Positions 2,270 through 61,081 of a DNA stretch of 64,000 nucleotides are shown here, piece after piece (positions within the stretch are counted from its first letter, which is position 1; each line of letters opens with the position of its first letter). The translations under genes and the position numbers were made by a program. The stretch is from Sphaerolaimus hirsutus (lineage: Eukaryota > Nematoda > Chromadorea > Monhysterida > Sphaerolaimidae), in NCBI GenBank assembly GCA_964036195.1, contig OZ038452.1:27291785-27355784 (forward strand). The letters are read 5' to 3'. Under the pieces are notes generated by a model. It saw only the letters and a list, made by a program, of their open reading frames with translations. It was not told where the DNA came from and made no database searches.

Positions 2270-4310
2270 AAATAAACACCTTCCCGGTCACGTCCGGCAG
2301 CCATTTTTTGATTTTACTTCTTATCTCCAGTTCTAGGGCGCCCCAGAGGCTGAAACTTGGGGGAGATATTGGCGCAACCACCCTCTACTTTGCATGAATT
2401 GGGGGGTCGCGGAAATCCCTCTAAGGGTGGGTCGCCCTAAGTGCAAATTTTTTTGTGGCTTTTTTGGTGTCCCACAGCAGGTCCGGCACCCGCTGATTTC
2501 TGAGCTGTGGGAGGGGTATAAATCTAAAATTTTGGGGATGTGTTTCCAACACCACTCCCCTACTATACACTATTCAATAATGTGAGATTAATGTGAAAAA
2601 TTTCTCAAAATTCGCTTATTCTCTAAAAAACACCACACCCCAATAGATGGATGACAAAAAAATTCACTTTTTGGAACTTTTTTATTAGACACTTGAAGAG
2701 CTGGTTTACGATACTTGAAAGGGAACGGTTTGATGTTTGAAGTTGTGTAAAGAACCATAGCTCTTAAATGCATGCATTGCAAAAATTACTTGGGGGGAAT
2801 TTCAAAGTGTAAATTTTGTAAATTTTTGTTCCTGCAATGATGTCATAAAATTCACCCTAAGTAAATTTTGCAATGCAGGCATTTTAGAGGTATGGTTCGT
2901 TACATAACTTTAAACATCAAACCGTTCCCTTTAAAGTATCGTAAACCAGCTCTTTAAGTGTCTAATAAAAAGTTACAAAAAGTGAATTTTTTGTCATCCA
3001 TCTATTGGGGAGTGATGTTGTTTTAGAGAATAAGCGAATTTTTGAGAAATTTTTCACATTAATCTCACATTATTGAATAGTGTATAGTAGGGGAGTGGTG
3101 TTGGTAACACATCCCCAAAATTTTATATTTATATCCCTCCCACAGCTCAGAAATCAGCGGGTGCCGGACCTGCTGTGGGACACCAAAAAAGCCAAAAAAA
3201 ACNNNNNNNNNNNNNNNNNNNNNNNNNNNNNNNNNNNNNNNNNNNNNNNNNNNNNNNNNNNNNNNNNNNNNNNNNNNNNNNNNNNNNNNNNNNNNNNNNN
3301 NNNNNNNNNNNNNNNNNNNNNNNNNNNNNNNNNNNNNNNNNNNNNNNNNNNNNNNNNNNNNNNNNNNNNNNNNNNNNNNNNNNNNNNNNNNNNNNNNNNN
3401 NNAACGGTAGAATGCAAATTTCACTTTAAACCATTTTTTTTGTTTCACACTTACAAAGTTGGTTTACAAAGTTCACTAGAGAATGGTCTAAGGTTCAAAG
3501 TTATGTAAACAACATAACCTCTAAAATGCCTCCATAAGGAAATTTACTTGGGGTGAATTCTATGATGTCAAAATGATGTCATTTCATGAACAAAATTTGA
3601 CACAATTTTCACTTTTTCATTCACCCCAAATAAATTTCCTTATGGAAGCATTTTAGAGGTTATGTTGTTTACATAACTTTGAACCTTAGACCCTCCCCTA
3701 GTGAACTTTGTTTTAAGTGTGATACAAAAAATTGGTTTAAAGTGAAATTTTCAGTCTGCTGTTTATGGGACAGGGTGGGTGCCCTACTGAAAAAAAATTT
3801 TATGAGCAGAACTACGGTTCAAATCTGATTCAATTTTATATCAGGTATGTTCTCACAAACTTTTTTTGTAGTGCAGTTGGGTGGCGAACTTGTTTCTGAC
3901 ACTTGGGCTGTTCTTAAAAAAATATCAATTTCATATGCAGTGACCCATGCTTTAGTGGGTCGTCGGCAGCCACCCCACTGGTGTATTGTGAGGGGGGTTG
4001 TTGGCAAGACATCCCCCAAATTTCAGCTGTCTACCGCCCGCACAGCTGGAGATATAGCCTTCAAAGTGTAGCTAATCAAGTGGGTGGTGAACTTGCTTGG
4101 GACACCAAAAACGCCACAAAAATTGTTGCATATAGGGCGACCCACCCTGTAGTGAGTCGCCGCACCTCCCCCCATTGTTGGGTAGTAAGGGGGTCTTACA
4201 ACTTTATATATACAAAGTTTCAGCGTTTTAACACCCCCATGGACGGAGATATTGCGTTCGAAATGAAATAAAAAAATGGGTGGTGAACTTGTCCGGGAAG
4301 GTGTTTATTT
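2270..4310. mobile_element. Compound foldback element, about 2 kb, containing the gap
   Basis: The outer inverted ends are AAATAAACACCTTCCCGG at 2270 and its complement ending at 4310. Inside are successive palindromes: about 2450-2830 folds back on 2830-3200, and about 3410-3590 folds back on 3600-3780. Degenerate repeats of a 'gggtggcgaacttg' type unit fill 3870-4290. Two hundred unknown bases (3203-3402) interrupt it, which is usual for an assembly stalling in a palindrome. I see no transposase. Confidence 0.6.
3203..3402. other. Assembly gap (200 N)
   Basis: A run of 200 N inside the foldback element. Any open frame crossing it is meaningless. The true length of missing sequence is unknown, because 200 looks like a placeholder. 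Confidence 0.99.
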
Positions 4311-5104: not shown

Positions 5105-8100
5105 GAATTTCTTGTATCACGAGCATGGAACCCAGTGCCAAATGTGCATGTTTGCAGCTGAAAACTCTAATGACATTTATTGTATCGATGGCAGTGAATA
5201 TTGGTCGCATGCGAGATTCAAGGAAAAAGACCCGTGCGTGGATGTTCCAATAGTTGTGAGTCGCTTTTTCACAGATTTTCAACACTACTGAATCATTGGC
5301 GGAATAATGACCCTAGGGCATTTTTTGAGGGTTTTCAAAATTATATTCACTTATTAATATTAATATTAATTAATATTAATATTATTATTATTAATATTAC
5401 TTCTGCTGTAAAGTGGAAATAGCTGCAGACTGGGGTGTAAAAAACTTTTAGGCCGGAATTAGAGCTCAGCGTTGATTCGACGTGAAATGATGACGTGAAA
5501 TGACGTCGTGAAATTAATTACACGAGTGTGGATCATGCTACGGGTCTACAATTTTCTAAGGATAATATATGAATCAATACCTTAATCGTGTCCAATACTG
5601 AGTGTTATCAGCCACAACTAGAGCGAATTGAAAAATTCAATTTTTATCATTTCACGTCATCATTTCACGTCGTCATTTCACGTCATCATTTCACGTCGAA
5701 TCGACGCTGAGCTCGAATTCCCGCTTTACAGGGAATTGAGCATGGGAAGATAGAGATTTTTTCAGCTGCTGAAAAATGAAAGGTGTAAATTTTTCATTTG
5801 GAAAATGGAAATTGTTCACCTGCTAGAAAACGGAAAAAGGGGGGGAAAGCCAGAAAAATGGAAATGGAAAAGCAAACATTTTTCCAGAAAACGGAATATG
5901 GAAAGGTTTAAATTTCGCCTGAGTAAAACGTAAATGGTAAACAGAAAGTTGACACTGTACTGGGGCCAGTCCCGCAAGTTGACAAGTGCTCTACTCTTGA
6001 CTCTCGACTTGACCTTTGACTTTGCTCTTGACTTTTAACTTGACTCTTGACTTTGTCATTTGCGGAACCGGCAAGTGACAAAGCCAAGAGTCAAGAGCAA
6101 AGTAAAGAGTCAAGTGAAGACTCAAAAGTAAATCACTTGTCAACTTTTTGTACTGGCCCCCGGAGACACAAATATTTATTGGCGCTATGCCAATTTGCAT
6201 ATCAAAATAACTGGTCCAGAATTACAATATACCGTCTTTATTCTAAAAGAAGGGCGCACTTCTATTTTTTTCGTCAACTTTTTTACCCGCCCTTCTATTG
6301 GAGACACCCTTCTATTGGAGACTGCCCTTCAATTTTTTCGCCATTATTTCAGCGAAATTTTTTCACGTTCTGCAAAGGTTTTTCAAGGTGTTACGTCAGA
6401 GACAGTTCATATATTGATGATTTGTAGTTTTCAATCAACATTTTATGTGTAAAAAGCACCAAATCAATGGACAAAAGACACTAAAGTATTTACAGAGTCC
6501 GCTGATATTTTTAATTTTTTCATGCATCTGGCACAATTCCAGCACTTTGTGTACCTTCTATTGGAGACCGCCCTTCTATTTTTTTTCATGGTCAAAATTA
6601 AGTCGAAAAAGTGTACGTTCTTTGGGAGACCCGCCCTTCTATTAGAAGAAATATGGTAGCACTAACAAGTCACTCTAAATACCGTATTTCCTCGATTTAC
6701 CATCCCCCCTTGAATGAACCCCCCCCCCTCGAAATACCCCCAGGTGTTTTCGAGCTGGGGAAAAAATAAACCCCCCTCGAAATACCCCCCGTCTGGAATG
6801 ATGTACACCATGTATGCAATGTACATGATGTATTTATTTGTACCAGTTTCCATCGCACATACACATATAAATACATCAATTTATATACAGATATATATTA
6901 ATGTACAGATGTACGTCTGTATGCCCCGATATGTCCTATTACTTACCTTTATTACCGGTTTTGTGTATGAAAAGCATATTCTTTACTATGAATTTCAAGA
7001 AAATTTCTGACGAAATAATAACCCCCCCCCCCTCGAAAACGCCCCCCCCCCCTTCGAAATACCCCCCCCCCCCTCAAAATTTCCACTCTGAAAAAATAAA
7101 CCCGCTGGGGGTATTTCAAGGAAATACGGTATCTAGTTTATATAATAATAAATACATGCATTTCAGGATCCCGGCGGCAATGTCTCGTGTACAGGGGGCA
7201 ACTCTACCCCATTCGCAAACCAGCCTGTCTTTGTGAAGGTTGTAGAGAGCTATAAAAAGTCTGAAATCGACCGGAAACTCAATTTTCGTTTGGAATCGCT
7301 GCTGGTACAGAATTATATGCTCATGTGGCTGGGCATAACTGGATTTTGCATATTGGGTTAGTATTTGAATGTGGGAAATACAAATAGGTATAGAATGAAT
7401 TCCGAAATACAGGTAAAATGTATTTCTGTAAATCCTTGAATAAGTGGGCAAAACTCTCTACAAGTACCTAGTAGCGGCCTGCAAGTAAATACCGTATTAC
7501 CTCGAAATTCCCCCAGGGGGTTTATTATTTCGCCAGCAAATTTTCAGGCGGGCTAATTCGAGGGGGGTCTATTATTTCGCCAGAAATTTTGTGAAATTCT
7601 ACGTACTGAGGTATAGAAAAATCAAGCAATTACATAGACGTATAATATATGTGTTCATAGACGTAAAATGAATGTAGGTATATATTTACGCATAAACCCC
7701 TGCCCTAACGTCACTCAGTCATTGGTTTCAATGTGAGTTCTGCATCATACAGATCACAAACTGCGGTATTTGCCGTGTACCTACATTCTCTTTACACTAA
7801 ACTTGGGTGGTGGTATTTCGAGGGGGGGGGGATTTATTATTGCCTCAGAGGAATTTTAGGGAGGAGTATTTAGAGGGGGGATTTATTATTTCCTCAGCGG
7901 AATTTTAGGGAGGAGTATTTAGAGGGGGGTTAATTCAAGGGGGGTTAACTCGAGGTAATACGGTATGCAAGTACGCACCTCAACCTAAGCCCCGGCTAGC
8001 ATTGAGAAATTGCTGATTTTCAATACAGCATAAATCAACTTAATCGCGGACAATTTCTCAAATTTTAATTTTAAGTCACGTGATGAGAAAAGTTGTAGGT

Positions 8101-11100
8101 AAGTTATTAAAATATGTAATTAAATCTATCTGATGTGGACTTATTCAAGAATTTATGGTATAGTGCTCAGATTTTACCTAGAAAGCAAAACTATATAAAT
8201 TGGCAAATTCGGATGGTGCAGTTCATTTTTAGAGGCGTGATAATTTGACACTGACATTTTTCAGGTTTGCAAAACAACAGTGCCCTGATCTATTTCACAA
8301 TGGGCATGCCTTTTGTCCTGTTATTGTCCCTGGAAGCCTGGCTGGTGTCAATTCCACAAGTTGACAAGTGATGAGAAAAGTTGTAAGTGTCAAGTTGTAA
8401 GTAGTAAATATGTCAAGTGATGAGTGAGATAATATAGAAATAGTGCAAAATTGCACTTGCCTCAGGCGGGAATCAAACCCACACCTCTCGTATAGAACAC
8501 GAGTGCCCTAACCACGAGACTACAGAGGCGGCTGGACTCTTCACTGTTAGGGGCTGACATGCTGCGGCGGCAATGCCCTTAACAATATCTTGCAGTAAAT
8601 TTCAAGATAAAACGTGCCTCTGCTTGCCACTTCTAAGTATTTGTTACTTATCTTTCTACTCACAACTTTACTTATCACTTTCCATTTTCTATCACTTATT
8701 TACTTGTGGAATTTTTCCCAGGACAATATGGGTGGCTCGAAGGCTGCCTTAGAAGTTTTCTGGTCTCTAAATTGGGAAGAGTTTTTGAATTATCATGTTA
8801 GCGATTTGTTTTGAGATTACCTATTCTGACACTTTTACAAGCACAAGCAGCAAATTCGACTGAAAATTAATCTGCTGTGGGAATTTTTTGAATTTTGCAT
8901 GACATTTTACAGGGTGCGGGACTGGCCTCGGATGCGGTTTTGTCCGTCGGGGCGGGCGTTTATTCCGTCCCATTCACAGCAAAAAATGGATCCGTGAAGC
9001 GTGTGGAAGCGGCCTGGATGCGCGTGAAGCGGCGCGCTTCCACACGCTTCCACACGCTTCCACCAACATCACGAAAATTTCAGTGAAGTGTCTTCCACAC
9101 GCTTCACCTAGCTTCACCACGCGCTTCACGCGCATCCAAAAATGTGGAAGACACTTCACGGCGCTGGCGCTTCCACACGCTTCCCGTACTTATACATTTG
9201 TGTGGGAGCACCATGTAAGGAAGCGTGAAGTGCCTTCACGCTGATTTTCGTTATGTGTGTGGAAGCGCCGGCTTGCTTGGTGAAGCGTCAGGAAGTGTCT
9301 GGCGTGAAGACACTTCCCGACGCTTCACCGCGCATCCACACACCCATTATTTGCTGTGATTGTAAACCCATAATATTCAGGCACACTTTTCATGTTGGGT
9401 GTGTTGGCGTGAAGACACTTCCCGACGCTTCACCGCGCATCCACACACCCATTTTTTGCTGTGAAAAGCTTTTTTTACTAAATAAAAGGTCACTGAAAAT
9501 TCACCGAGACGGTTATTTTCATATTTGAATGAAACGTTGAGAACGGAGAAAAACCTCATGTCAGCCCACTTTCCATCATATATTTTTCATTCGAATTAGA
9601 AAATAACATCTAATTATATCAGCTTAAATTTTTACCTTTACGGTGTATCTCAACTATTGATACTGTGTATCACACTGTGAACTATATTTCATGATGCATA
9701 TTTGAGGCACCCTGTAAGTTCATGATCTAAAAATGCATTCCCATGATCCATTGCAGATCAACATGCACAAACCGCACAAATCTCTTGTGCAAACAAAATG
9801 GTCATTGGTCAGCCAAAATGACCGTATTTTTAAATCGACCCTTTTTTCACCCAACCTAATTACACCCCCCCCCCCATGTGGCAGCAATGGACAACGGCTA
9901 TAATTCAAGTGCTATTTTCATCCAACATCCAAACCGGGGCGTTGATCATCTACGCGAGCTACGCCAAGCGGTCGTGCAACATTTTCACCAGTTCTCTGAT
10001 TGCAATCAGTGTGTGAGTTGGTATACATGAGTGTGAATGAAGCTTGAAGTGTCGTGTTAAGGCACACATCTCAGACAAAGTTAAAAAATCCTCTGGAATT
10101 GTCTGCAGGGTTTAAGTCTGCAGGTTTTAACTCTGAAGTTTTAACTCTTAACTTTTCATTTTGCGGAACTGGCCCCAGGTCATCTGACATTTCACTTGTC
10201 ACAAAATTACGTAAAGTGGTGGAAAATATAAATGAGAAAATCACTTAATTGTATTTTACCGATCCCATGTGCAAGCTGTTTGGCTTTCATCTTGTGTGAG
10301 GGTGCCCCCAAGTATTTACTATATGAAGGGTGTGCTTCTAAAAGTACCGATCTACAAATTTTTCAAATTTGAGTTAGGACCATTTTTGGGGTCCCCATAA
10401 ACATACGCTATATAATATATAAGAACAAAATATATAATATGTGGGGGGTGCGAAATTCAATTTTGAGATATGGGGGGTCGAAAAAAGCAAAAAAATCGCA
10501 AAATACGGTTTTTGAAATTTTAAAAGTACCGATCTACAAGCTTTTTCAGCTTTTGTGTCTTTAAAAGTACCGATCTACACACTTTTTTCAAAATTGTTCT
10601 TTGAAATGTACCGATCTGCACATTATTTTTTGTGCTTCTAAAAGTACCTACCGTATTACCTCGAATTATCCCCCCCCTTGAATTAACCCCTCCCTCGAAT
10701 TAACCCCCCCTCAAAATGGGCTGGGGAAATAATAAACCCCCCCTCGAAATACCCCCCCTCCGGAATGATGTACATCATGTATGCAATGTACATGATGTAA
10801 TTATTACTACTTGTTTGCATCGCATCTACACTTATACGCTCATTTGTGTACAGATGCACATCTATAGCCCCAATATAACCTATTTTCTCACGTTTATGAC
10901 CGTTTTTGTGTAAGAAAAACCGTACTTCACTATGAAAAACCCTACTTCTTTACTATGAATTTCACGAAAATTTCTGACGAAATAATAAACCCCCCCCTCG
11001 AATAAACCCCCCCCTCGAATTAACCCCCCCTCAAATTTTGCTGGCGAAATAATAAACCCCCATGGGGGTATTTCGAGGTAATACGGTATGTCAGATTGGC

Positions 11101-14100
11101 GTCTGATTCAGCAAAAACTCATTTTGTGCTTTTTTATTATGGGTAAAAGTACCGATCTACAGCTGTCTGATTTTGTGCTTTAAAAAATACTGATCTACAT
11201 GCTATTACCAATTTGTTCCTTTAAACGGTACTGTACTACAAAAATATAATTCACTAAATTTTATATAGCTAGTGTTATGTGTATAATCAATGATTATACC
11301 CATGCATGTGGATACCCAACAATATGGCCGAAATGCCCATACCCAAAATTCCCATACCCAATACCCATGTATGGGTATTGCATACTCCAAACATTCAATT
11401 GCGATTATCTCAAAATCGATTTTTCGTAGATCGGTACTTTTAGAAGCACACCCTTCATATACCCTAGGTATTTCATCAAGCACTGCCCACATTGCAGCGA
11501 CACCATAGTTTCGTTCGTGTCCTGCTACGTGATGGTGCTGTATAACCTGACCTTGGAGGAACAGCTCACCTGGATAGAGGTCAATGGAACGAAACACGCG
11601 CCCAGCAGCGCAGATAATGTGGCTGGTCAGTGCTTTGGGGTAAAGCAACTTGGCTCACTTGTTGATATTCTACCGTATTACCTCCAATAAACGGCACCCT
11701 CCAATAAACGGTACCCTCTAATTGAAGGCACAGTGTTTGGCTTTTTTAACATACCGTATTACCTCGAATTAACCCCCCTTGAATTAACCTCCCTCGAAAT
11801 ACCCCCTAAAATTTGGCTGAGGAAAAAATACCCCCCCTCGACATACCCCCCTAAAATTGAATGTAAAGAGAACGTACATGACAAATACCACAGTTTGTGA
11901 TCTGTACAATGCAGAACACACGTTAAAGGCGATTATTGAGTGACGTTAGGGAAGGGTACTACGGTAGATATTTTTATATTCCCCATGTGTGCGAAACCCC
12001 TCAGCTCACCAGTCAGATCAAAAAGAAATACTTTTCCCATTTACAGATTTCTCATTGACTTTCTCTGTCATGATGGATGCTTTGACTGACCAGTGCTTTA
12101 TTGGTGTCAAAATGTGTGTATAAATACATCCTTGAACTCTTTTGGACAACAATTTTTGTATAAATTTACTTAATTTTGTTCGATTTTATTCAAATTTGAG
12201 CACACATTCAAAATATGACAAAGAAAACTATTTAAAGCGCTCATTTTGACACCAAATCTTGACCCACAGCAGACTTGGAATAATAGGCTATTTTATCATT
12301 CTACTTTTGATGGGCATTGACACAATTTTTGCCATGATTGAATCTGTAGTGATGTCAATTTTGCATCAGTGGCCCCAATTTTTTGGCAAAAAGAGGAAAT
12401 TGGTGGTGATTTTGGTGTGCACATTGTGTTTTTTGAGTGGACTGCCACTCTGCACTGAGGTGGGTTTGTTACAGTATACCAGTATAGGTACACTTTTGGG
12501 TGACTTTTTGGGCCACGCAATAATTACAGGGGCAGTCTCCAATATGTAGAATGGCATAAACTGTTGCAATTGTGCCAAATGCGCTCGAATATTTTCACTA
12601 GATCATCGTATTTTTCATTTTTTGTGGTGAATTCTGAATACACAATATTCTGCGGTAATTTTGAGCTGCTGCGGCTGGAACATTTGCACATTTTTGTCTC
12701 GCCAATATGAATAGAAGATCCGTATAAAACAGAATCTTTGAATAGTGTGAAAAAATTCCAAAAAGAAAATTAAAAACGCTTTCAAATTTTCCAAATTGTT
12801 CTTTGCAATCACTATCATACCGTATTACCTCGAAATACCCCCCGTAGGGGTTTATTATTTCGCCAGCGAAATTTGAGGGGTGGGTTAATTCGAGGGGGTT
12901 TATTCGAGGGTTTTTTTATTATTTCATCAGAAATTTTCGTAAGGATCATAGTAAAAAGCGGGCATTTGCGAATCCAAAACAGGTAATACATGTGTCCAAA
13001 CGGGGTATATTTGAACATAAAAAGGTAGATAGCTACACAAACTAGTCTATGTGAAGGGTGTGCTTCTAAAAGTACCGATCTACAAATTTTTCAAATTTGA
13101 GTTAGGACCATTTTTGGGGTCCCCATAAAAAATGCGCTTCAAAAAAATATATAATATGTGGGGGGTGCAAAATTCAATTTTGAGATATGAGGGGTCGAAA
13201 AAAGCAAAAAAATCGCAAAATACAGTTTTTGAAATTTTAAAAGTACCGATCTACAAGCTTTATAGCTTTTATATTGTTCAAAGTACCGATCTACACACAT
13301 TTTCAAAAATTGTACTTCTAAATGTACCGATCTGCACTTTTTTTTGTGCTTCTAAAAGTACCGATGTCAGCTCGGCATCATCAGCAGCAAAAACTCAATT
13401 TGTGCTTTTTTACTATGGGTAAAAGTACCGATCTACATCTATCTGATTTTGTGCTTTAAAATGTACCGATCTACATGCTATTACCAATTTGTTCCTTTAA
13501 AATGTACTGTACTACAAAAAATACGATTCACTAAATGTTATATAGCTAGTGTTATATGTATAAACAATTATACCCATGCATGTGGATACCCAATAATATG
13601 GCCGAAATACCCATACCCAAAATTCCCATACCCAATACCCATGTATGGGTATTGCATACTCCAAACTTTCAATTGCAATCATCTCAAAATCGATTTTTTG
13701 TAGATTGGTACTTTTAGAAGCACACCCTTCATGTGTAGCTGCAAGCAAATTAGCAGTAATATAGGTACATCACGATGTATTTATTACGTACATGACGTAC
13801 ATCATTCCAAAATGGGGGGGGGGTATTTCGAGGTGGGGTTATTATTTCCCCAGCCCATTTTGAGGGGGGTTAATTCGAGGGGGAGGGATAATTCGAGGTA
13901 ATACGGTAACCTAAAAACGATCGCAGAATGGCCGTCTGGTAATGCGCTTAGTGGACACCATCAGCAACTCCACGGGCGCCATGATGGTGGGCATTTTGGT
14001 GTCGGTGGTCCCTTCCCTCGTCTATGGAATCAGGCCCCTGGTGCCGATTCCAGACCCTTTAAAATGCTCGCAAAGTGTCAAAAGTCATGTAAAATGCCCC

Positions 14101-17100
14101 GGAAAATGGCAAACGTACGTTGCATGACACTTGACATTTTACAGGGCATTTTACAGGGTCTAGGACTGCCCCCAGGTGGAGGACATTCTGCGCTCCAGCG
14201 ACAATTATGAGGCTCAATTGGTCAAGTATGTACATTTTTTACCCAATTTTTAAATCGATAATTATGTTGGAATTAGTGCTGGGACGGCGTTCTGGCGCTG
14301 GCGCCATTTGAGTGCGCCAAAGGTAGCCGCACCATGGCGAATGGCGTCACTGGTGTTTGTCGCCACTATTTTATTAGTCCCTCAAAGCCAAGTATCACGA
14401 TTTTAATTGTATCAAAGGCCTCTTGGCGGCCATTTACCTTGGCGCGTGGGTACACGTTTTCGAATTTTTAAATTTTTATTACACCATGAGAAAAAAACCC
14501 TAAAAATTTGGTAAAATGCAATAATGCAAATGTAAAATTTTTACAGGTGGCACACTGCCAATTTGTTCACGAGACTTTTCGGTCGCATTGGCTACTTCTG
14601 GAGGGCGTGTTGGATGGGCGTAACCCCTATACTTTTGTTTGTTAGTTTTCATGTTGAAAAATTGACACTTTTTAAAAATGTATGCAATTTTTGTTTCTAA
14701 TCACTTATCAGGTGTCATACATTTACACGGCGGTGGCTTGGAAAGAGGAGTTCTTTTACAAGGATGAACATTTCTGGCCAAATGGTACAAAGACTAATAT
14801 TGCGGAGGGCTGGAATATTTGCGCGTGAGAAATTGGGCTAGAAATTTTGTTCCAGCTTTACCTAGTTGTTATGAATACTTTAGGATTACCTATAGGTAAT
14901 AGTCAAACAAATTCCATTAGGTTCAGTTGTTTTTTGGCTTAGCTGTTTACACGAAAAGAAACTTACGTGAATACCTGGGCCCAGTAAATACCTATGTTTG
15001 ATTGGCTCAGTGCCAACGTAGGGCCCTGGGTGTGGACTCATTCACACATTGGGTAGGGGGGGGTATTCGAGACAATGGGGTAGTTCAATCAAAGTGAACA
15101 CTGGCAGAAGCGACAACTGCGTGCGGCTGCTCACGCTGGCCACGCACACGGCCGAGATCGTGATTGTGCTGTACGCGTTCGGCGTGCTGCTCCACTGGCT
15201 CATCTTCAAGAGAAGGGTCCGTTGTTTTTGGTGGAGTTGTGAGAAAAAGTAGAGAGGAGTTTTTAAGTACACGTGAATGCAAAGTATTTTGAATTTGTAC
15301 TGAAAACATAGTTTATTTTTTTTACTTGGAATGTTGGAGTAAAACTTTTGCCATTTTATGGAGTTTATGACTTTTGACACTTTGCATGACATTTCACATT
15401 TTACAGGGTCTGGGAGTAGCGCCACTTTACTTCAATATTGATAAAATTTTTCTTGTCACAATTCTACTTTGAAATTATTTCTTACTTAAGATGAACCAAT
15501 GAATACACACACGCAAATACAATTACTACATACCAAAAATAATATTAAAAAAACACTTTCAGGGCCTGTGGCAAGTAATCGAGCCCAAAACCGAGTATGC
15601 AATCAGGGAAGATTTCATTTCGCAAAGTGCAAGTCACAGCGTTTCCAGAAGTCGCAGCAGGACCCCAACTTCGCCCGCCAGCCAAATAAAAAAGTTTTTT
15701 TTGGGCGGGTGGGAGCTGAAAATCACGTATACTCGGCGTACGTGATACTCTGCCCTCGCACTGATTTATGTCTCGTGTTGGAAGCGTGCCAATGATTATC
15801 AAATCATGCGATTTCCGTAAAAATATGAAAAAAACTCATCGATGTGAATATTTTAATGAATAACATTATAACAACAATCAATTTTGTCATCTTTTTATGA
15901 AACTCGGACGCGTTAACCATCGTTGGCTCACTTCCAGCGGGAACCACGCGTGCAGGGTGTAAAGTAACCGGAGTATACCGGTACTGCTCAAACAGAACGC
16001 TATTTAACAAAATTATTCTGTTTTGATTTTCGCATCATTTGATTCACGTGAGAAATTGCGAAACAAATACCTAAACCCACAATGAGAGCAACAATTTATT
16101 GTAATGAAAAATAACATTTTTTTGTTTGTGTTTTCCGATGGGATCAGCAGGGGCCAGTTCCGCAAATTGAGAAGTGAGAACTGAGAAGTAAAGTGGTAAA
16201 TGCTAAGTGAAATGAGAAGTGAATTGAGAAGGAAATTGGCAAAAGCGAAGTGAAATTATTTTTTATTTATTAGATTCGCTTTTGCCAATTTACTTGCCAT
16301 TTCACTTCGCTTTTGTCAATTTTCTTCCCAATGCACTTCGCATTTGCCATTTTACTTATCTCTTCTCAATTTGCGGTATGTCATTATAAAGTGCGCACCC
16401 GCAATTATTTAACGGGGACTTGTTGTTACAATAAATGCATAATTTTTTAAAAATTTTTCCAGAAATCCCATCAGAGTGCCCAGACGAATGCCATCGGAAA
16501 TGGGCACAGAGCACAAACTGATCGAGGGGCGCCGAAAGCACAGCAAAGAGAAGCTGGCCAAATTTTGGACGAGAAGCAAAGAATTGGCGCGTAGGCGGAA
16601 AAGCGCCAACAATGTCGAACGGCGGGATTCGGATACTCAGCAAGGTTCCAATTCCAAGCGCCAGCGCCAGGCGTTTTCTTCCTGGCGCCACACAAAAAAG
16701 CGCCGAGCGCCAAAAGCACCATGGCGCTTTTCCGAACCTCAGCGTCTAGTGCCAATGGCGCCAAGCGCCATGGCGCTTTTTGTTTTGGCGCTAGCGCCAA
16801 GCGCCAGCGCCAGGCGTTTTCTTCCTGGCGCCACACAAAAAAGCGCCGTACGCCAATAGCGCCATGGCGCTTTTCCATCACTAATTCTACTTACCATCCG
16901 CCGCATGTCCACTAGCAGAACTGGTCCCTGGGTAGCGATGTAAAAGCGCCACTGTATTTATTGGGGCCTGGCGCTAGTACCAACACAAGAAGCGCCATGG
17001 CGTTTTCGACGTTTAGCGTTTGGCGCAATTTTTGGGCCGCAGGAAAAAACAACGTGATGCTTTCAACTGGCGCTAGCGTCAAAGCAAAAAGCGCCATGGC

Positions 17101-17299
17101 GTGCGGCACTTAGCGCCATTTTGCTCTGGCGTTAAGTTCTGGCACCGCTAACAACTTTACAGGCGACAACGAATCTTCCGACCGAATCCAGTGGAGTCAA
17201 GTTTCTGATGAAACCAAGGTGCCGGGAACTAAAAGCTCGGACAGGCGCACTTTTGCGCCCACGCGAAGCAGCTCAGATGATACGCAGAAGGAAGATTGA
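5105..17299 (+). CDS. Divergent SLC6-family sodium-coupled transporter (3' two thirds)
   Basis: Exons: 5105-5255, 7167-7356, 8265-8344, 8722-8796, 9885-10012, 11498-11625, 12047-12113, 12270-12459, 13927-14040, 14176-14225, 14547-14640, 14712-14824, 15108-15216, 15563-15693, 16463-16644, 17163-17299 (TGA). Phases join throughout, giving about 645 residues in window. The 12113/12270 junction is the least certain. The protein runs from a Cys-rich extracellular loop 2 with NVS and NST glycosylation sites to a stop. TM5 is FTMGMPFVLLL and TM6 is QWTTAIIQVLFSSN then YASY. TM8 is LLLMGIDTIF, which keeps the Asp-Thr pair expected at sodium site 2. TM9-10 is SGLPLCTE then LVDTISNSTG. The roughly 140-residue cytoplasmic tail is rich in Ser, Arg and Lys. 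Loop 4 lacks the usual YPEA motif, so the substrate cannot be named. Family members import amines or amino acids with Na+ and usually Cl-. TM1-3 and the start codon were not found. Confidence 0.8.
5451..5723. mobile_element. MITE with inverted 'acgtgaaatgatg' arms
   Basis: The left end ggccggaattagagctcagc is mirrored by the right end gctgagctcgaattcccgc. Subterminal arms made of acgtgaaatgatga-like repeats fold back on each other. A cousin with longer arms is at 51378-51809. It lies in an SLC6 intron. Confidence 0.75.
5961..6161. mobile_element. Short inverted-repeat element (introner-like family, full copy)
   Basis: A palindromic element of about 200 bp with ends like ggggccagtcccgcaagttg and the complement. 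The arms carry ttgactcttgac and its complement. It belongs to the same broad group as the elements at 8345-8721, 16148-16376, 31506-31704 and 60285-60460. All of these begin near CTGG/GGCCAG and carry potential splice sites at their ends. Here it sits inside an SLC6 intron. Confidence 0.7.
6227..6659. mobile_element. MITE with 'cccttctattggaga' repeats
   Basis: The left end is ataccgtctttattctaaaa. The right end complements it (agaagaaatatggta), and there are several internal copies of cccttctattggaga. It is non-coding and intronic. Confidence 0.55.
6680..7131. mobile_element. MITE, TACCGTATTTCC family
   Basis: A full-length copy ending 35 bases before the SLC6 exon at 7167. C-rich homopolymer tracts flank a unique core with cacatacacatataaatac. 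Confidence 0.8.
7490..7965. mobile_element. MITE, TACCGTATTACC variant
   Basis: The ends TACCGTATTACCTCGAA and complement are the tattacc subfamily also seen at 10649, 11752 and 12818. It is intronic in the SLC6 gene. Confidence 0.8.
8345..8721. mobile_element. Introner-like element: intron coincides with a MITE
   Basis: The whole SLC6 intron between 8344 and 8722 is bounded by inverted repeats that begin at the splice sites. The donor side reads CTG|GTGTCAATTCCACAAGT and the acceptor side ACTTGTGGAATTTTTCCCAG|. The shared core AATTCCACAAGT continues into imperfect complementary arms (aagtgatgagaaaa and ttatcactt types). The centre holds a tRNA-like sequence on the opposite strand (8458-8529). 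So element and intron are the same piece of DNA, with donor and acceptor inside the repeat ends. Confidence 0.7.
8458..8529 (-). tRNA. tRNA-Arg(TCT)-like gene or tRNA-derived SINE
   Basis: On the minus strand 72 nt fold as a cloverleaf. There is a 7-bp acceptor stem GCCTCTG/CTGAGGC (one T-T mismatch), a D-arm GTCTCGTGGTTAGGG matching box A, and a perfect 5-bp anticodon stem CTCGT/ACGAG. The 7-base loop GTTCTAT has T33 and anticodon TCT. The T-arm GTGGG/CCCGC has loop TTTGATT (box B, C56 position altered). It lies antisense in an SLC6 intron. The altered T-loop leaves a pseudogene or SINE head possible. Confidence 0.55.
8973..9465. mobile_element. MITE with 'cttccacacgcttc' subterminal repeats
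   Basis: Perfect 17-bp ends TTCACAGCAAAAAATGG and complement. The interior is dense in gaagcgtg / cacgcttc units in both orientations, plus an internal duplication of the right end (ending near 9360). Subterminal motif clusters like these usually bind transposase. It is intronic; related sequence bounds 56823-59778. Confidence 0.8.
10324..11457. mobile_element. Element with 'aaagtaccgatctac' repeats
   Basis: The ends are TGAAGGGTGTGCTTCTAAAA and complement. The interior has about ten copies of aaagtaccgatctac. A TACCGTATTACC MITE (10649-11088) is nested inside and is missing from the sister copy at 13052-13731. It has no reading frame of note. Confidence 0.8.
10649..11088. mobile_element. 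Nested MITE, TACCGTATTACC variant
   Basis: A complete element inserted into the 'accgatctac' element. The uninterrupted copy at 13052-13731 provides the empty site. C-rich tracts in the left arm are mirrored in the right. Confidence 0.8.
11752..11966. mobile_element. MITE, TACCGTATTACC variant (short)
   Basis: Starts TACCGTATTACCTCGAA and ends in a degraded complement (tactacggta). It lacks the long G-rich right arm, so it is an internally deleted copy. Intronic in SLC6. Confidence 0.65.
12114..12269. mobile_element. Possible introner-like intron with inverted ends
   Basis: The SLC6 intron between the loop-4 and TM8 exons. TTGGTGTCAAAATG at its left border is mirrored by CATTTTGACACCAA at its right border, about 150 bases away. 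The element starts inside the flanking exon by several bases, and the exact splice choice is uncertain. The claim is therefore weaker than for 14041-14175. Confidence 0.45.
12818..13018. mobile_element. MITE, TACCGTATTACC family (half copy)
   Basis: One arm of the family is clear (taccgtattacctcgaaata, then G-rich arm). The other end is not recognisable before the next element at 13052. Confidence 0.55.
13052..13731. mobile_element. Element with 'aaagtaccgatctac' repeats, copy 2
   Basis: Same ends and same internal repeat as 10324-11457, but without the nested MITE. Intronic. Confidence 0.8.
13750..13908. mobile_element. MITE fragment, TACCGTATTACC family
   Basis: The right arm with G tracts ends in ggtaatacggta. 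The left arm is truncated. It ends 18 bases before the SLC6 TM10 exon (13927). Confidence 0.6.
14041..14175. mobile_element. Introner-like element: 135-bp intron equals a MITE
   Basis: The intron between SLC6 exons 13927-14040 and 14176-14225 is an inverted-repeat element from splice site to splice site. The left end CTG|GTGCCGATTCCAGACCC and the complement of the right end (CTGGGGGCAGTCCTAGACCC) align. Both are followed by TGTAAAATGC-type sequence. Its arms (aaaatgtcaagtgtca type) are those of free copies at 17317-17498, 17869-18066 and 60474-60674. Removing it joins GIRPL to VEDIL in frame, matching the gap-free SLC6 alignment. Confidence 0.8.
15728..15977. mobile_element. MITE, TATACTCGG family
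   Basis: Ends TATACTCGGCG and a matching gagtata. The core has ggaagcgtgccaatgat and gcgggaaccacgcgtgcagg. Related copies are at 48781-49028, 53911-54158 and 50187-50440. Intronic, immediately after the exon ending at 15693. Confidence 0.7.
16148..16376. mobile_element. Short inverted-repeat element, CCGCAAA family
   Basis: The left end ggggccagttccgcaaattg is mirrored by caatttgcgg at the right. Arms of gaagtgaaatgg-like repeats form a near-continuous hairpin. It lies in the intron before the exon at 16463. Confidence 0.7.
16650..17160. repeat. GGCGCC-rich repeat filling SLC6 intron 15
   Basis: The intron between 16644 and 17163 is packed with aagcgccatggcgctttt-type palindromes. A direct repeat of about 50 bp (around 16660-16712 and 16799-16851) contains cgccaggcgttttcttcctg. 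The GGCGCC/ATGGCGCC core is also the core of the 39-bp satellite at 19639-27840 and of spots at 24060, 35515 and 41170. Confidence 0.7.
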
Positions 17300-17316: not shown

Positions 17317-17498
17317 TTGGGGGCACTTCCAGCAGACACTGTAAAATGCCCTGCAAAATGTCAAATGTGATGCTGTGTCAAGAGTCATGCAAAATTCCCT
17401 GGAAAATGGCAAAGGAATTTAAATGACATGACTTTAGACACTTTGCATGACATTTGGCATTTTCCAGGGCATTTCACAGGGGCTGGGAGGTGCACCTG
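17317..17498. mobile_element. Short inverted-repeat element, CCCTGTAAA family
   Basis: It begins 18 bases after the SLC6 stop codon. The arms are tgtaaaatgccctg and complement, with ends gggcacttccagcag and the complement of gctgggaggtgcac. Same family as the intron at 14041-14175. Confidence 0.7.
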
Positions 17499-17868: not shown

Positions 17869-18066
17869 CTGGTGGCAATCCCAAGCCCTGTAAAGTGTAA
17901 AGTAAAGTGTCAAATGTAAAGTCAAATGCAAAGTAAAGTGTCAATTGTCATGCAAAGTTCAGTAATAAAATCTTTTCTTTTTTGTTTTGATTGACACGTT
18001 ACTTTGCATTTGACTTTACATTTGACACTTTACTTTACACTTTACAGGGCTTGGGACTGCCCCCAG
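17869..18066. mobile_element. Short inverted-repeat element, CCCTGTAAAG family
   Basis: A 198-bp near-perfect hairpin. It starts CTGGTGGCAATCCCAAGCCC and ends in gggcttgggactgcccccag, with arms of gtaaagtgtcaaatg-like repeats. It is nearly identical to 60474-60674. GT at its left end and CAG at its right end are in the positions used as splice sites in 14041-14175. Confidence 0.8.
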
Positions 18067-19135: not shown

Positions 19136-22100
19136 TCACATATTTAGTTGCCATAGAATTGCCATGTAAGTCAAAACAATTGATCCCAACTGTAAAGAAC
19201 TAACGGGGTTATATATGAGGCATCTAGTTCCGAATGTCGTTAAGTCCATCATTTTGGGTTTTTTCAAAATTGCATTTGAAATTTCAAAGTTGGCCCAAGC
19301 AGGCAACTTTAAAGTGACAAGTCTTGCCCAAAACTTTTTGAAAAGCTTATGAATTTGTCTACATTTTCCATATTTTAAACCCTCTGGCCGGAATATATAC
19401 TCATAGTTATGATGAGTTTTTTAACATCACCTCAGCAGATTCAGTGGAGATAACGAGTTTCGGGTGAAATTTCACTCGAATGTCGGTATCTCCACTTCCT
19501 ATTTATTACCTGTTCCACCTCATCATACCGTATCTATAAGGTGTTAAAATTCATATATTGATGCTGGCATACTACACAAAGGACTTGCTATGTATAGCAT
19601 TAATGGTAGGGGAATTATGCCTTTTTCATGTAGTGGCTCCAAATGGCGCCATTTTTATGGAGTGGTGTCATGGACTCGGAAACTGCGCCAATTTTATGAA
19701 GTGGCGCCATGGACTCGGAAACGGCGCCATTTTTATGGAGTGGCGCCATGGACTCGGAAACGGCGCCATTTTTATGGAGTGGCGCCATGAACTCGGAAAC
19801 GGCGCTATTTTTATGGAGTGGCACCATGGACTTGGAAATGGCGCCATTTTTATGGAGTGGCGCCATGGACTCGGAAAAGGTGCCATTTTTATGGAGGGGC
19901 GCCATGGACTTCGAAATGGCGCCATTTTTATGGAGTGGCGCCATGGACTCGGAAACAGCGCCAATTTTATGGAGTGGCGCCATGGACTTGGAAACTGCGC
20001 CAATTTTATGAAGTGGCGCCATGGACTCGGAAACGGCGCCATTTTTATGGAGTGGCGCCATGGACTCGGAAACGGCGCCATTTTTATGGAGTGGAGCCAT
20101 GAACTCGGAAACGGCGCTATTTTTATGGAGTGGCACCATGGACTTGGAAATGGCGCCATTTTTATGGAGTGGCGCCATGGACTCGGAAAAGGTGCCATTT
20201 TTATGGAGGGGCGCCATGGACTTAGAAATGGCGCCATTTTTATAGAGTGGCGCCATTGACTTGGAAACGGCACCAATTTTATGAAGTGGCGCCATGGACT
20301 CGGAAATGGCGCCATTTTTATGGAGTGGCGCCATGGACTCGGAAACGGCGCCATTTTTATGGAGTGGCGCCATGGACTCGGAATGGACTTGGAAACGGTG
20401 CCATTTTTATGGAGTGGCGCCATGGACTCGGAAATGGTGCCATTTTTATGGAGTGGCGCCATGGACTCGGAAACGGTTCCATTTTTATGGAGTGGCGCCA
20501 TGGACTCGGAAACGGTTCCATTTTTATGGAGTGGCGCAATGGACTCAGAAAAGGTGCCATTTTTATGGAGGGGCGCCATGGACTCGGAAATGGCGCCATT
20601 TTTATAGAGTGGCACCATTGACTCGGAAACGGCACCATTTTTATGGAGTGGCGCCATGGACTCGGAAATGGCACCATTTTTATGGAGTGGCACCATGGAC
20701 TCGGAAATGGCGCCATTTTTATGGAGTGGCGCCGTGGACTCGGAATGGACTTGGAAACGGTGCCATTTTTATGGAGTGGCGCCATGGACTCGGAAATGGC
20801 GCCATTTTTATGGAGTGGCGCCATGGACTCGGAAATGGCGCCATTTTTATGGAGTGGCGCCATGGACTCGGAAACGGTTCCATTTTTATGGAGTGGCGCC
20901 ATGGACTCGGAAACGGTGCCATTTTTATGGAGTGGCGCCATGGACTCGGAAATGGCACCATTTTTATGGAGTGGCACCATGGACTCGGAAATGGCGCCAT
21001 TTTTATGGAGTGGCGCCATGGACTCGGAAACGGCGCCATTTTTATGGAATGGCTCCATGGACTTGGAAACTGCACCATTTTTATGGAGTGGCACCATGGA
21101 CTTCAAAACGGCACCATTTTTATGGAATGGCGCCATGGACTCCAAAATGGCACCATTTTTATGGAATGGTGCCATTGACTTGGAAACTGCACCATTTTTA
21201 TGGAATGGCGCCATGGACTTGAAAATGGTGCCATTTTTAGGGGGGGCACCAGACTCCAAAGTGGCGCCATTTTTATGGAGTGGTGCCATAGACTTTTTTC
21301 AAAATTTTGTCATCTTTTTTTCTAAATTAAAAAAAAAATTTTTTCAAACTTTTTCCTGCCATGGACTTTAAAATGGCGCCATTTTTATGCAGTGGTGCCA
21401 CAGACTCCAAAATGGTGCCATTTTTATCGAATGGCACCATGGACTTAAAAATGATGCCATTTTTATGGAATGGTGCCATAGACTTGAAAACTGCGCCATT
21501 TTTAGGGGGGCACCAGACTCCAAAGTGGCGCCATTTTTATGGAGTGGTGCCATAGATTTATCTTTTCAAATAAATAAAAAAAAATCAAATTTTATTCAAA
21601 TTTTTTTAAGTTTTTTTTCAAAATTTTTTCATCTTTTTTTCTAAATTAAAAAAAAAATTTTTTCAAACTTTTTCCCGCCATGGACTCCAAAATGGCGCCA
21701 TTTTTATGCAGTGGCGCCTAGGGTTCAAACGGGATCCCGATCCCGATCCCGGATCCCGTGAAATTCCGGGATTTATCAGTCCCGATCCCGATCCCGATCC
21801 CGAAACCCCAATCCCGATCCCAATCCCGATCCCGAAATCTCAAAAATACCAATCCCGATCCCGATCCCAATCCCGAAAATTTTCAAATCCCGATCCCGAT
21901 CCCGAGAAACTCCCAAGTCCGGGATCCCGATCCCGGAAAGATTAGTGGAAATTATAAAAAGTGAAATAATGACGTTTTTGCATGCAAAAAAGTGGATGCA
22001 AACCCCAGCGTCAATTTTATGCCACTTTTCTGGCATCCAACAGCGTTTTGAGACCCTTATGAACAACTGTGAATGCCAGAAAAATGGCCGAAATCTCTAT

Positions 22101-31498: not shown

Positions 31499-31505
31499 GG
31501 TGTAC

Positions 31506-31704
31506 AGGGGCCAGTTCCGCAAAATGAGAAGTGGGAAGTGAAATGGCAAAGGCGACATAAATAGCAAAGGCGAAGTGAAATGGCAAGTGAATTGGCAAAA
31601 GCACAGTAAAAAAAAAAAGTAATTTCTTTTCGCGTTCGCCATTTCACTCGCCATTTCACGTCGCCTTTGCCATTTCACTTCTCATTTTGCGGAACTGGCA
31701 CCAG
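31506..31704. mobile_element. Short inverted-repeat element, CCGCAAAATGAG family
   Basis: A 199-bp hairpin starting ggggccagttccgcaaaatg with the complement at its right end (cattttgcggaactggcacc). It lies seven bases upstream of the gene A start codon, so it probably forms part of the promoter or 5' UTR. Sister copy at 60285-60460. Confidence 0.8.
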
Positions 31705-59700: not shown

Positions 59701-61081
59701 GAAACGTGTGGAAGTGCGCCACTTCACACGCATCCAGCCTGCTTCCCGAGCTTCACAAATCAATTTTTTGCTGTGACATTTTTGCACAATACAGATGGCA
59801 CTTGATGTGAAAATGCCAAAGCAAGCATCAGAGTTGTAACGGTAAAAAAAATTTTTTTCAAATTATCTGACTGTTTGTGTACCCTAAAATCTAAAAGCAC
59901 ATTTTTCATGTAAAATAATGTAGAAGAAACATGTTTCCCAATTTTTCTATGAGAACAATGTAAAATGAATGTAAAAGTTTTGTTTCCAAGAAAATGTAAA
60001 GCAGTGTATTTTTAAAAATTTCATCATCATCATCATTCCTACTTGCCCAATTTAAGTGCATGAAAACAATACACTTTTGGTGCCAAGCATGCCAGAACAA
60101 CAATACGTTTTTCTCAGGCAGCCAAAGCCACAAGACACAATGCCAAACCCATTTTTATCACATTGGTTTTACTGCTACTAAAAATGTAACATTCTATAGT
60201 ATATTTTCAGTATAGTAACTTTTAGTATTTTACTGATCTGATCATTCTGCAGTACCAATGCCAAGCACCAGAAGCATCACAGCGCTTCTGGTGCCGGTTC
60301 CGCAAAATGAGAAGTGAGAAGTGAAATGGCAAAAGCGAAGTGAAACAGCAAATGAATTGGCAAGTGAAATAACAAAAGCGAAAAGAAATTTCTTTTTCTT
60401 TTTTACTTTGTTTTTGCCATTTCACTTCTCACTTCTCATTTTGCGGAAGTGGCCCGCAGATGTGTGTGGCGACCTGGTGGCAGTCCCAAGCCCTGTAAAG
60501 TGTAAAGTAAAGTGTCAAATGTAAAGTCAAGTGCAAAGTAAACTGTCAATTGTCATGCAAAGTTCAGTAATAAAATCTTTTCTTTTTTTTGTTTGCTTTG
60601 ACACTTTACTTTGCATTTGACTTTACATTTGACACTTGACTTTACACTTTACAGGGCTTGGGACTGCCCCCAAGTGCCAATGCCACCAAAGTGAAATGCA
60701 TTTTCAGAAAACCGTTAAAAAATCAATCATTTTGAATGGTTAGTCTTTGTGAGAAGTTATAGCGAAATGATATTTCCATTGTTCATATTCAATATGGATA
60801 AAATAGGACATTTGTGTAAAACAAAATTCAAACTTTGATTCTCCATGTGCCTATATCTAAAACAGGTCAGCACCCTTCACAACATAAAACATACCTAAAA
60901 CAAGTATGATAGCACAAGACCACTTGGCAATCCTTGAAAATAGTTTTTCCTTCTGTTGGTACCTCAGCATCTCTGGTAGATTCATACTTACTGGCCAAGC
61001 AAACAGATACAAACATATTGGAGTAATTTTATCAACCACTACCTTGCAATTTTTAACTGTGAAGAATTTCTTAATCACCAT
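47755..61081 (-). CDS. Gustatory receptor-like seven-TM chemoreceptor, gene C (intact)
   Basis: Exons in order: 61081-60895 (ATG), 56695-55890, 49443-49384, 48450-48349, 47811-47755 (TAG). All boundaries are GT-AG. Phases run 1, 0, 0, 0 and the joined frame is open: 403 residues, the usual Gr length. Exon 1 has FAWPVSMNLPEMLRY and a TM ending ILVLG. Exon 2 carries TM2-TM5 with THHNFCCIIEKLDEY. The short 20-codon exon contains FPHILHIKLSP. The 34-codon exon contains TTWAITCWQIFP, and the last exon LTYMTLLWQL is the Gr signature. The role is inferred as a chemosensory ion channel. Exons 2 and 3 are 6.4 kb apart because the intron has collected at least five transposon-like elements. It is paralogous to genes A and D on the same strand. 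Confidence 0.87.
48637..49160. mobile_element. MITE, TACCGTATTTCC family, with a nested MITE
   Basis: Outer ends intact. A TATACTCGG-family element (48781-49028) splits the core. Located in intron 3 of Gr gene C. Confidence 0.8.
48781..49028. mobile_element. Nested MITE, TATACTCGG family
   Basis: Starts tatactcggcggacatgata and ends gactggagtata. It shares cttccagcgggaaccacgcg with 15728-15977 and, inverted, with 53911-54158. Confidence 0.75.
49560..50943. mobile_element. hAT-like element with 'acggaaactca' repeats
   Basis: Ends CAACGATGG and complement, with flanking octamers GGCTAGAC / GTCTAGAC (one difference). The ends are filled with acacggaaactcaa and aaaacttgagttt repeats. A TATACTCGG-family element (50187-50440) is nested in the middle. 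Intron 2 of Gr gene C. Confidence 0.65.
51035..52468. mobile_element. Element with TACCGTATTTCTCC ends and 'agtgcccgggcac' repeats
   Basis: The left taccgtatttctccgtgtac is mirrored at the right (gtataatacggta-type: acactgagaaatacggta). Repeats of catagtgcccgggcactatg lie near both ends. A MITE (51378-51809) is nested. Its terminal bases resemble the TACCGTATTTCC family, suggesting the same mobilising transposase. Confidence 0.7.
51378..51809. mobile_element. Nested MITE with 'aagccggaattacagctcag' ends
   Basis: Near-perfect inverted arms of about 60 bp (cggcgtttgacgtgaaatga and complement), then a longer imperfect stem down to about 51600. Relative of 5451-5723. Confidence 0.85.
52514..52830 (-). 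mobile_element. Decayed hAT-like MITE (CAGGGGT family)
   Basis: Recognisable by caggggttt at the left and cccctgattc at the right, plus internal tataggtagatagatggc. Diverged and without a clear target duplication. Confidence 0.55.
53439..53886. mobile_element. MITE, TACCGTATTTCC family
   Basis: A complete copy, with the same core (gcagacggcgaaaatgcaac, cacataacagagtcatcg) as 1741-2156 and 38385-38790. Confidence 0.87.
53911..54158. mobile_element. MITE, TATACTCGG family (inverted)
   Basis: Contains cctgcacgcgtggttcccgc and ggaagcgtgccaacgat, ending in ccactgagtata. Reverse orientation relative to 48781-49028. Confidence 0.7.
54846..55750. mobile_element. hAT-like element with 'ggtgccggtgcggtgcc' ends
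   Basis: Ends TAGTGATGT and complement, with a perfect 8-bp duplication CTAATAAC on both sides. Both subterminal regions are built from caccggtgcc repeats. The middle (55080-55540) is unique and AT-rich with no long frame. Intron 2 of Gr gene C. Confidence 0.88.
58653..58859 (+). CDS. Small hypothetical single-pass membrane protein (68 aa)
   Basis: ATG at 58653, stop at 58859. I do not recognise it. The N-terminus MDYPPYDILSLCINNTC has two cysteines and a possible NNT glycosylation site. It is followed by one long hydrophobic segment (about residues 26-50, VVFVYYTLFLLMGLLFACLF) and a short Gly-rich tail. It lies inside the possible cargo element. Coding status is uncertain, since a frame of this length is not rare by chance in a T-rich region. 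The composition is that of a real TM helix, but T-rich DNA also produces that. Confidence 0.3.
   Translation: MDYPPYDILSLCINNTCASYVLDINVVFVYYTLFLLMGLLFACLFVSLIAVCFPVHGGGFGFSVEFAE
59162..59340 (+). promoter_or_regulatory. Candidate promoter / LTR-like unit
   Basis: TATAAAA at 59162-59168 is followed about 38 bases later by TCAGTC (an arthropod initiator match, 59198-59203) and then AATAAAA at about 59328. This order (TATA, initiator, poly(A) signal within 170 bases) is like the R region of an LTR or a short transcription unit. I could not find a second copy, so no LTR pair is shown. Confidence 0.25.
59779..60284. other. Intron 1 of Gr gene C; nothing seen
   Basis: AT-rich intronic sequence without exon, RNA gene or repeat that I recognise, apart from a short tcatcatcatcat run near 60022. 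Confidence 0.45.
60285..60460. mobile_element. Short inverted-repeat element, CCGCAAAATGAG family
   Basis: A hairpin with ends ctggtgccggttccgcaaaa and complement. Arms of gaagtgaaatggcaaaagcg match 31506-31704. Adjacent to the element at 60474-60674. Gene C intron 1. Confidence 0.78.
60474..60674. mobile_element. Short inverted-repeat element, CCCTGTAAAG family
   Basis: A 201-bp hairpin nearly identical to 17869-18066, 42 kb away. It begins ctggtggcagtcccaagccc and ends gggcttgggactgcccccaa. Gene C intron 1. Confidence 0.82.

Follow-up and report, generated by a model that had tools for sequence, protein, structure and literature searches.

We analyzed a window of 64,000 nucleotides (nt) from the nematode Sphaerolaimus hirsutus (contig OZ038452.1, here C3; the window is C3:27291785-27355784). 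The genome comprises 348 Mb in 762 contigs, with eleven contigs of 23.9-34.0 Mb summing to 318.7 Mb. On the + strand of the window lies an SLC6 transporter gene whose recognizable exons span ∼12250-15220; further downstream, a reading frame reaches a stop near 17298. Two of its exons flank 135 nt (14041-14175) that are best read as a phase-0 intron composed of a transposon plus one triplet of its target duplication. The features of this site are listed below in window positions; here and throughout, a slash marks an element end or exon junction.

13930..14040, + strand: SLC6 exon upstream of the element (..VYGIRPL); inferred start, with an AG acceptor near 13926-13930
14038..14040, + strand: upstream copy of the 3-bp target duplication, CTG, kept in the exon as its last codon (Leu)
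14041..14175, + strand: inferred intron, 135 nt, phase 0 (CTG/GTG)
14041..14172, + strand: non-autonomous inverted-repeat transposon (miniature inverted-repeat transposable element [MITE]), shortened by two internal deletions relative to a 196-nt consensus
14041..14042, + strand: inferred donor GT, bases 1-2 of the left terminal repeat (GTGCC; right end read outward, GGGGC)
14162..14163, + strand: possible alternative acceptor (TCTAG), 12 nt before the acceptor, adding 4 residues in frame
14173..14175, + strand: downstream copy of the target duplication, CAG, with AG as the inferred acceptor
14176..14226, + strand: SLC6 exon downstream of the element (VEDILRSSDNYEAQLVK); approximate end

The putative SLC6 intron and its element

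The 135-nt stretch starts with GTGCCG and finishes with GCCCCCAG. Its outer ends pair inversely (14038-14067 with 14146-14175), and its inverted arms of 25 nt (14088-14112 and 14131-14155) are 88% complementary. A first-pass annotation of the window had described the intron as exactly one transposon with both splice sites in its terminal repeats. The inverted arms and the extent of 14041-14175 held up, but the element itself ends at 14172, and the last CAG belongs to the duplication. Likewise, the donor GT does lie in the left repeat, but the acceptor AG falls in the downstream copy of the CWG duplication. The duplication copies flanking this element differ by one base (CTG on the left, CAG on the right), and the element is 7.2% from the family consensus at aligned positions. 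If the intron were retained, the frame would be kept, with two in-frame stops.

When the exons are joined, the assembled 187-residue piece has GlyT2 (E 4e-14) and the serotonin transporter among its matches to solved structures. The junction YGIRPL/VEDIL is gapless against GlyT2 in three alignments ("slvygirplvedi" against "SYVYGLQRFCEDI"), and the Pfam SNF profile agrees weakly there (residues 2-43 on 409-450, E 0.079). The in-phase joining and gapless protein alignment reported at first pass were thus borne out.

A tandem SLC6 paralogue with the same element-intron is present 25.8 kb upstream (C3:27279982-27280116). It belongs to a tandem duplicate of the SLC6 region (C3:27270000-27289999) with 88-97% identity in the main aligned blocks. 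Compared with window positions 13928-14226, the paralogue shows 0 differences in 164 exon nt (113 + ∼51) and 5 differences that all fall inside the 135 bp, with GT and AG kept (P = 0.018); 2 further differences lie in the next intron. Judged from these sequences, exon identity together with a drifted element is what an intron flanked by conserved exons would show. Because both copies carry the same intron, the insertion predates the tandem duplication. The TAG of the possible alternative acceptor at 14162-14163 is missing in the paralogue, which reads TCTGG.

The paralogue also bears on whether the element is instead an unspliced exonic insertion that leaves the SLC6 copy a pseudogene or a truncated protein. 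We consider this very unlikely: the paralogous exons remained identical while the element drifted with its GT and AG intact, and the recognized SLC6 exons are open. What speaks for an unspliced insertion is that retention brings in two stops, that the donor is weak, and that N-terminal SLC6 exons were not recognized when the reading frames were inspected by eye. The donor sequences GTGCCG and GTGCCA are weak beyond +3, with GTGCCA fitting the usual donor consensus only up to that position.

Since the donor matches the usual consensus only to +3, a hairpin may help splicing. For the intron RNA, the predicted fold has -53 kcal/mol (z -6.9, 200 shuffles), with donor and acceptor meeting at the base of the stem, and the consensus RNA folds at -162. 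The antisense strand folds too (-49 kcal/mol, z -4.1), because the element is a palindrome. In this folding model, the hairpin may aid the weak donor.

The family across the genome

When the genome was searched with the 135 nt, 80 stretches matched, distributed over 40 places; only 40 of 1,124 first-look candidates were scored. Of the 40 loci examined, 35 allowed both ends to be located. Oriented alike, most copies read CNG/GTGCCAGTCCCAGACCC...GGGTCTGGGACTGCCCC/CNG, with changes. The first-pass annotation had proposed a genome-wide tabulation of copies and their ends; the left end with CAG had 9,103 matches when as many as 3 mismatches were allowed, against 0 for a reversed-pattern control, and copies end at inferred splice sites in six conserved genes (see below). 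Thirty loci on C1 with an exact left end comprised 20 ending in CAG, 1 in TAG, and 9 without a clean right end as placed. A further 20 loci comprised 13 ending in CAG (one, L097, with a poor right end), 5 ending otherwise, and 2 with no end found.

The consensus from 52 copies (two sets) is a near-perfect palindrome of 196 nt including both triplets. Its arms match over ∼95 bp except at the middle base of the triplet, at terminal-repeat bases 2 and 4, and at an approximately central 2-nt offset. The two ends therefore depart from each other at the bases that supply GT (the donor) on the left and a C-run before the acceptor on the right. Divergence from the consensus ranges from 0.6% (L016) to 17.5%. 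Two other copies, L065 (1.5%) and L074 (2.8%), also lie near the consensus, although their figures are lowered by selection through an exact 29-nt left end. The low divergence of L016 suggests recent activity of the family, in keeping with the first-pass proposal. At three loci (L028, C9:9802400; L035, C14:15022400; L036, C9:9722500), the element sits at the same place with a second related element downstream; these look like segmental copies.

The flanking triplets were tabulated with end patterns that fixed C and G at the outer triplet places, so that only CNG triplets were counted. The exact left end with CNG gave 608 matches, with CAG 45, CTG 45, CGG 6, and CCG 4 among the first 100 listed. 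For the right end, exact matches with CNG numbered 688; the first 100 listed comprise CAG 58, CTG 38, CCG 2, and CGG 2. Within these CNG-restricted sets, the CWG share is thus 90/100 on the left and 96/100 on the right. CAT on both sides was seen once (L020). Fourteen elements with both ends exact, defined as those present in both sets of 100 and matched by position and by eye, were sorted by their triplets as follows.

CTG on both sides (6): C1:3592137, 4806928, 7430899, 8181003, 8474380, 27127464
CAG on both sides (5): C1:7275375, 9045111, 10025982, 13226875, 20822896
CCG on both sides (1): C1:20580333
Unequal triplets (2): C1:12116285 (CTG left, CAG right), C2:2803510 (CAG left, CTG right)

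The triplets are identical in 12/14 elements, where 43% agreement is expected by chance (P = 0.0015). Because the same triplet stands on both sides, it is read as a 3-bp target duplication and not as part of the inverted repeat. Tallying 32 copies by hand had earlier given a borderline result (P = 0.06), which the two end sets supersede. While CAG and CTG are equal at the left end, CAG exceeds CTG at the right end (58 versus 38, P = 0.05, among the first 100 listed at each end). Such an excess is compatible with selection for an acceptor without proving it.

We give very little credence to the alternative that the element itself bears both splice sites (CTG..CAG or GTG..CAG) with no target duplication. 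It draws on the inverted-repeat-like pairing of CTG on the left with CAG on the right, found in 9/35 complete copies of the first set. These nine are the SLC6 copy and 8 more, one of which is its own paralogue. In the exact elements, however, the triplets are the same and not inverted in 12/14, and CAT and CCG pairs also flank copies. With the triplet read as a target duplication, the SLC6 site began with either CAG, later altered in the exon copy, or CTG, later altered in the right copy. Judging by the hydrophobic F at the corresponding GlyT2 position, Leu (CTG) is the likelier original, and the acceptor may come from one T-to-A change.

Several additional copies and relatives lie within the window.

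15355..15425, + strand: part copy between two other SLC6 exons, away from splice sites
17317..17498, - strand: reversed copy of the same family, immediately 3′ of the stop codon of SLC6, without the initial GT
17869..18066, + strand: sister-subfamily copy (GTGGCAATCCCAAGCCC), CTG/GTG...CCCCCAG
31505..31704, - strand: related family with like ends (GTGCCAGTTCCGCAAAATGAG and GGGCCAGTTCC)
60474..60673, + strand: sister-subfamily copy, CTG...CAA

Three free copies had been credited at first pass with the same ends as the SLC6 element. This is correct for 17869-18066, but 17317-17498 is reversed and has no GT start, and 60474-60673 ends in CAA. The copies at 17869-18066 and 60474-60673 belong to a sister subfamily (GTGGCAGTCCCAAGCCC). 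Beyond the three copies named at first pass, the window holds, with the part copy listed above, further part copies at 41701-41779, 46206-46263, and 8887-8931. It also holds related inverted-repeat families at 5960-6162, 16148-∼16375, 31505-31704, and 60288-∼60458. Some of these have CNG triplets, with GT at one end and GG at the other, and such families (e.g., GTGCCAGTTCCGCAAAATGAG) may make introns too. An empty site of the 17869 copy was sought in the tandem paralogue, where the stretch is too rearranged for one to be read. A phage-collection search with 17869-18066 gave no match. Separately, GGCGCC-rich inverted repeats occur at 16680-17130, inside the 3′ part of the SLC6 gene.

Element ends at junctions in other genes

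In six genes, including SLC6, the ends of the element coincide with inferred splice sites at a conserved-protein junction, and removal of the intron restores the protein. All six copies lie in sense orientation, with the GT end upstream (P = 0.016). In ATP9A (L011), the junction NMA-R/EGLR falls in 65 gapless residues (E 6e-25). A chymotrypsin-like protease (L021) reads SWPWQ/V with no gap at the junction, and in NSUN6 (L062), LRAQ/NVPSAL aligns to FLQNLPSAL. The junction of a MARK-type kinase (L096), ILIR/SMLRVNP, is gapless (E 6e-15), with a one-residue gap ∼5 residues upstream. Thus, 5/6 proteins show no gap at the junction; the exception is GLRX3 (L046; TDQ/SRVTL), with two extra residues just past it. 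Additional family copies were found in open reading frames. A C-type-lectin reading of one copy (L040) was unsupported in a structure search. The first-pass proposal that the family generates introns is upheld by the thousands of copies, the six sense junctions that restore proteins, and the paralogue pattern.

These junctions bear directly on whether the SLC6 site already had an old intron that later received a transposon and was then cut back by deletions to the element alone. In line with such a history, the part copy at 15355-15425 lies between SLC6 exons off the splice sites. The ends equal the inferred splice sites to the base, however, both here and at five conserved junctions in different genes, and trimming is not expected to halt repeatedly at transposon ends; we regard a pre-existing intron as highly improbable. 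We hold it extremely improbable that the intron spread through RNA, by reverse splicing or otherwise, a route suggested for fungal introner-like elements. Although all six protein-confirmed junctions are sense, as an RNA route would have it, the element is a near-perfect palindrome with a CWG-motif target duplication. Copies also occur in both orientations and in apparently noncoding flanks, and CAG and CTG are equally common at the left end among the first 100 listed.

As Pfam matches were few (see below), frame and codon statistics served as a second test of whether copies lie in coding sequence. In an open-frame test of 52 distinct sites, which compared the length of the open frames on either side of the join, frame-restoring joins in sense exceeded joins shifted by 1-2 nt (P = 0.019), whereas on the antisense strand, they did no better than shifted joins (P = 0.35); sense exceeded antisense (P = 0.005). 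A codon model trained on 452 codons of confirmed genes and applied to 46 other copies favored sense (Wilcoxon P = 0.004), with scores of at least 5 in 6 sense versus 1 antisense joins.

Mobilizer, proposed origin, and known introners

In the portions of the PHIS (PIF/Harbinger, ISL2EU, Spy) literature drawn on here, the NuwaI group is described as making a 5′-CWG-3′ duplication, as having ends that usually start with GGG, and as reported from animals only (PMC4482050). The SLC6-type family resembles NuwaI, as described there, in its CWG duplication and in its right end, GGGGC. It differs in its left end, which starts with GTG (GTGCC) and so gives the donor. It is also non-autonomous and ∼190 bp long. 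The DDE_Tnp_4 transposase family has 163 genome matches. Among those listed, well over 100 cover ∼12-158 of 158 positions with similar scores and the same read-through stop pattern, which suggests many near-identical copies from a recent burst. One transposase copy (L099, L100; C3:24387703-24388335) reached E 3e-24 after presumed short introns were omitted and gave no match in solved structures. As the ends of this copy lie outside the 2 kb read, the link to Harbinger comes from the target duplication and end sequence only. An in-frame gap of ∼190 nt in the transposase was considered as a possible element and rejected for this copy, in which the introns are short and ordinary-looking and nothing matches the consensus significantly.

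We find it very probable that insertion of a Harbinger-type (NuwaI-like) MITE created the SLC6 intron, with the donor from the element and the acceptor from the duplication. A NuwaI-like non-autonomous transposon would have entered an SLC6 coding exon at a C-CWG-R target and duplicated the triplet CWG. The spliceosome would take as donor the GT with which the left terminal repeat begins and as acceptor the AG of the downstream CAG triplet. Excision of the element with one triplet would give back the original coding sequence exactly. An insertion would be splice-ready in one orientation only and at a target yielding CAG downstream, presenting CAG/GT on the left and CCCCCAG/ on the right. At the SLC6 site, a later T-to-A change in the right triplet would have made the acceptor, and the hairpin would bring both splice sites together and aid splicing. 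The evidence for this account lies in the anatomy, the copy number, the CWG duplication, the restored proteins, the one-orientation bias, and the constraint pattern in the paralogue. Splicing, gain rather than loss, a Harbinger-type mobilizer, the T-to-A history, and the role of the hairpin are the steps that we infer.

Several observations weigh against this account. The donor is weak beyond +3, as described above. The flanking triplets are unequal in 2/14 exact elements and in the SLC6 copy, and no family end occurs in the 2 kb read around the transposase copy. Pfam scans used peptides drawn from the longest open frames rather than from all frames. Of 39 joined sense peptides, 5 matched at E ≤0.001 (thioredoxin, trypsin, RsmB/F, Tudor, and kinase), with the RsmB/F and Tudor matches stopping short of the junction. 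The 11 antisense peptides gave one match (GDT1, L060), which does not span the junction. The open-frame test is tilted toward spliceable copies, since 20/52 sites had been selected for CAG at an exact left end and for CAG or TAG on the right. The SLC6 site itself favored the shifted joins (25 codons versus 42 and 44), a reversal due to flanking exons shorter than the tested flanks. By plain count, the codon model scored sense better in 28/46 copies, which is not significant (P = 0.09). The codon score also barely distinguishes copies from background: values of at least 8 occurred in 1/46 copies (2.2%) versus 1.0% of 393 random stretches from the same loci.

Elsewhere in the window, a long degenerate repeat tract at 19540-27956 is open in several frames (repeated GNGAIFMEWRHGL and SPWRHSIKMAPF). 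Two related-looking uninterrupted frames of ∼290-300 residues (30018-30878 and 55851-56759, both - strand) appear multi-pass membrane-like by eye; a protein search with the 55851-56759 frame found no homologue at E 0.001. A tRNA-Arg (TCT) lies at 8458-8529 (- strand), and an assembly gap, a run of ∼200 N, at 3065-3508.

Introners are already known, and the SLC6-type family is a new introner family with unusually clear anatomy and high copy number. In 2016, Huff et al. reportedly described the introner elements of Micromonas and Aureococcus as short intron-making DNA transposons with inverted ends and duplications. These belong to other lineages and reportedly have other end sequences. In the sections of Gozashti et al. 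2022 that we cite, introners form families of introns that resemble one another almost up to the splice sites; they often carry terminal inverted repeats (TIRs) and short duplications (PMC9860276). Their splice sites come partly from the duplication, and mRNA length is mostly unchanged. The SLC6-type family matches this description in similarity that reaches the splice sites, TIRs, a short duplication, and approximately conserved protein length. The same sections describe Chrysochromulina introners with an element-borne donor, a co-opted acceptor, 4-bp duplications, and no TIR evidence (PMC9860276). Our family shares the element donor and co-opted acceptor but differs in having TIRs and a 3-bp duplication. 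In the relevant sections on Amoebophrya, inverted repeats join exon ends in a hairpin, with direct repeats of 3-5 nt at the boundaries (PMC7789003). The SLC6-type family likewise has inverted repeats forming a hairpin and short boundary repeats. The Amoebophrya introners described there have largely noncanonical sites and repeats of 8-20 nt, whereas the family described here has GT-AG sites and consensus arms of ∼95 nt. The words Harbinger and PIF are absent from the main text of Gozashti et al. 2022 (PMC9860276), and no earlier report of a Nuwa-type introner appeared among the papers listed in searches of open-licence literature.

A broader proposal is possible, though we hold it somewhat short of probable: that this is one of the largest animal intron-making families. 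It would have arisen from a Nuwa-type Harbinger MITE when one G-to-T substitution in a terminal repeat, and another change extending the C-run at the opposite end, made the palindrome into a directional cassette ready for splicing, with an acceptor from its own duplication and T-to-A rescue at CTG targets. If so, hundreds to thousands of present introns in this genome would derive from the family, some of them recently.

The origin of introns is an old question. The cited survey, covering 835 animal and land-plant genomes, reports intron-making transposons (introners) from no more than two groups of animals (PMC9860276). Here, a single chromosome-scale, animal-like genome carries copies by the thousand that differ in age; some lie in exons and others apparently elsewhere, and both CAG and CTG served as targets. 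Intron birth thereby becomes directly testable, by comparing insertions that are spliced at once with those that need a rescuing mutation. The family also offers a way to ask what minimal donor strength suffices for splicing once a long hairpin has brought the sites together.

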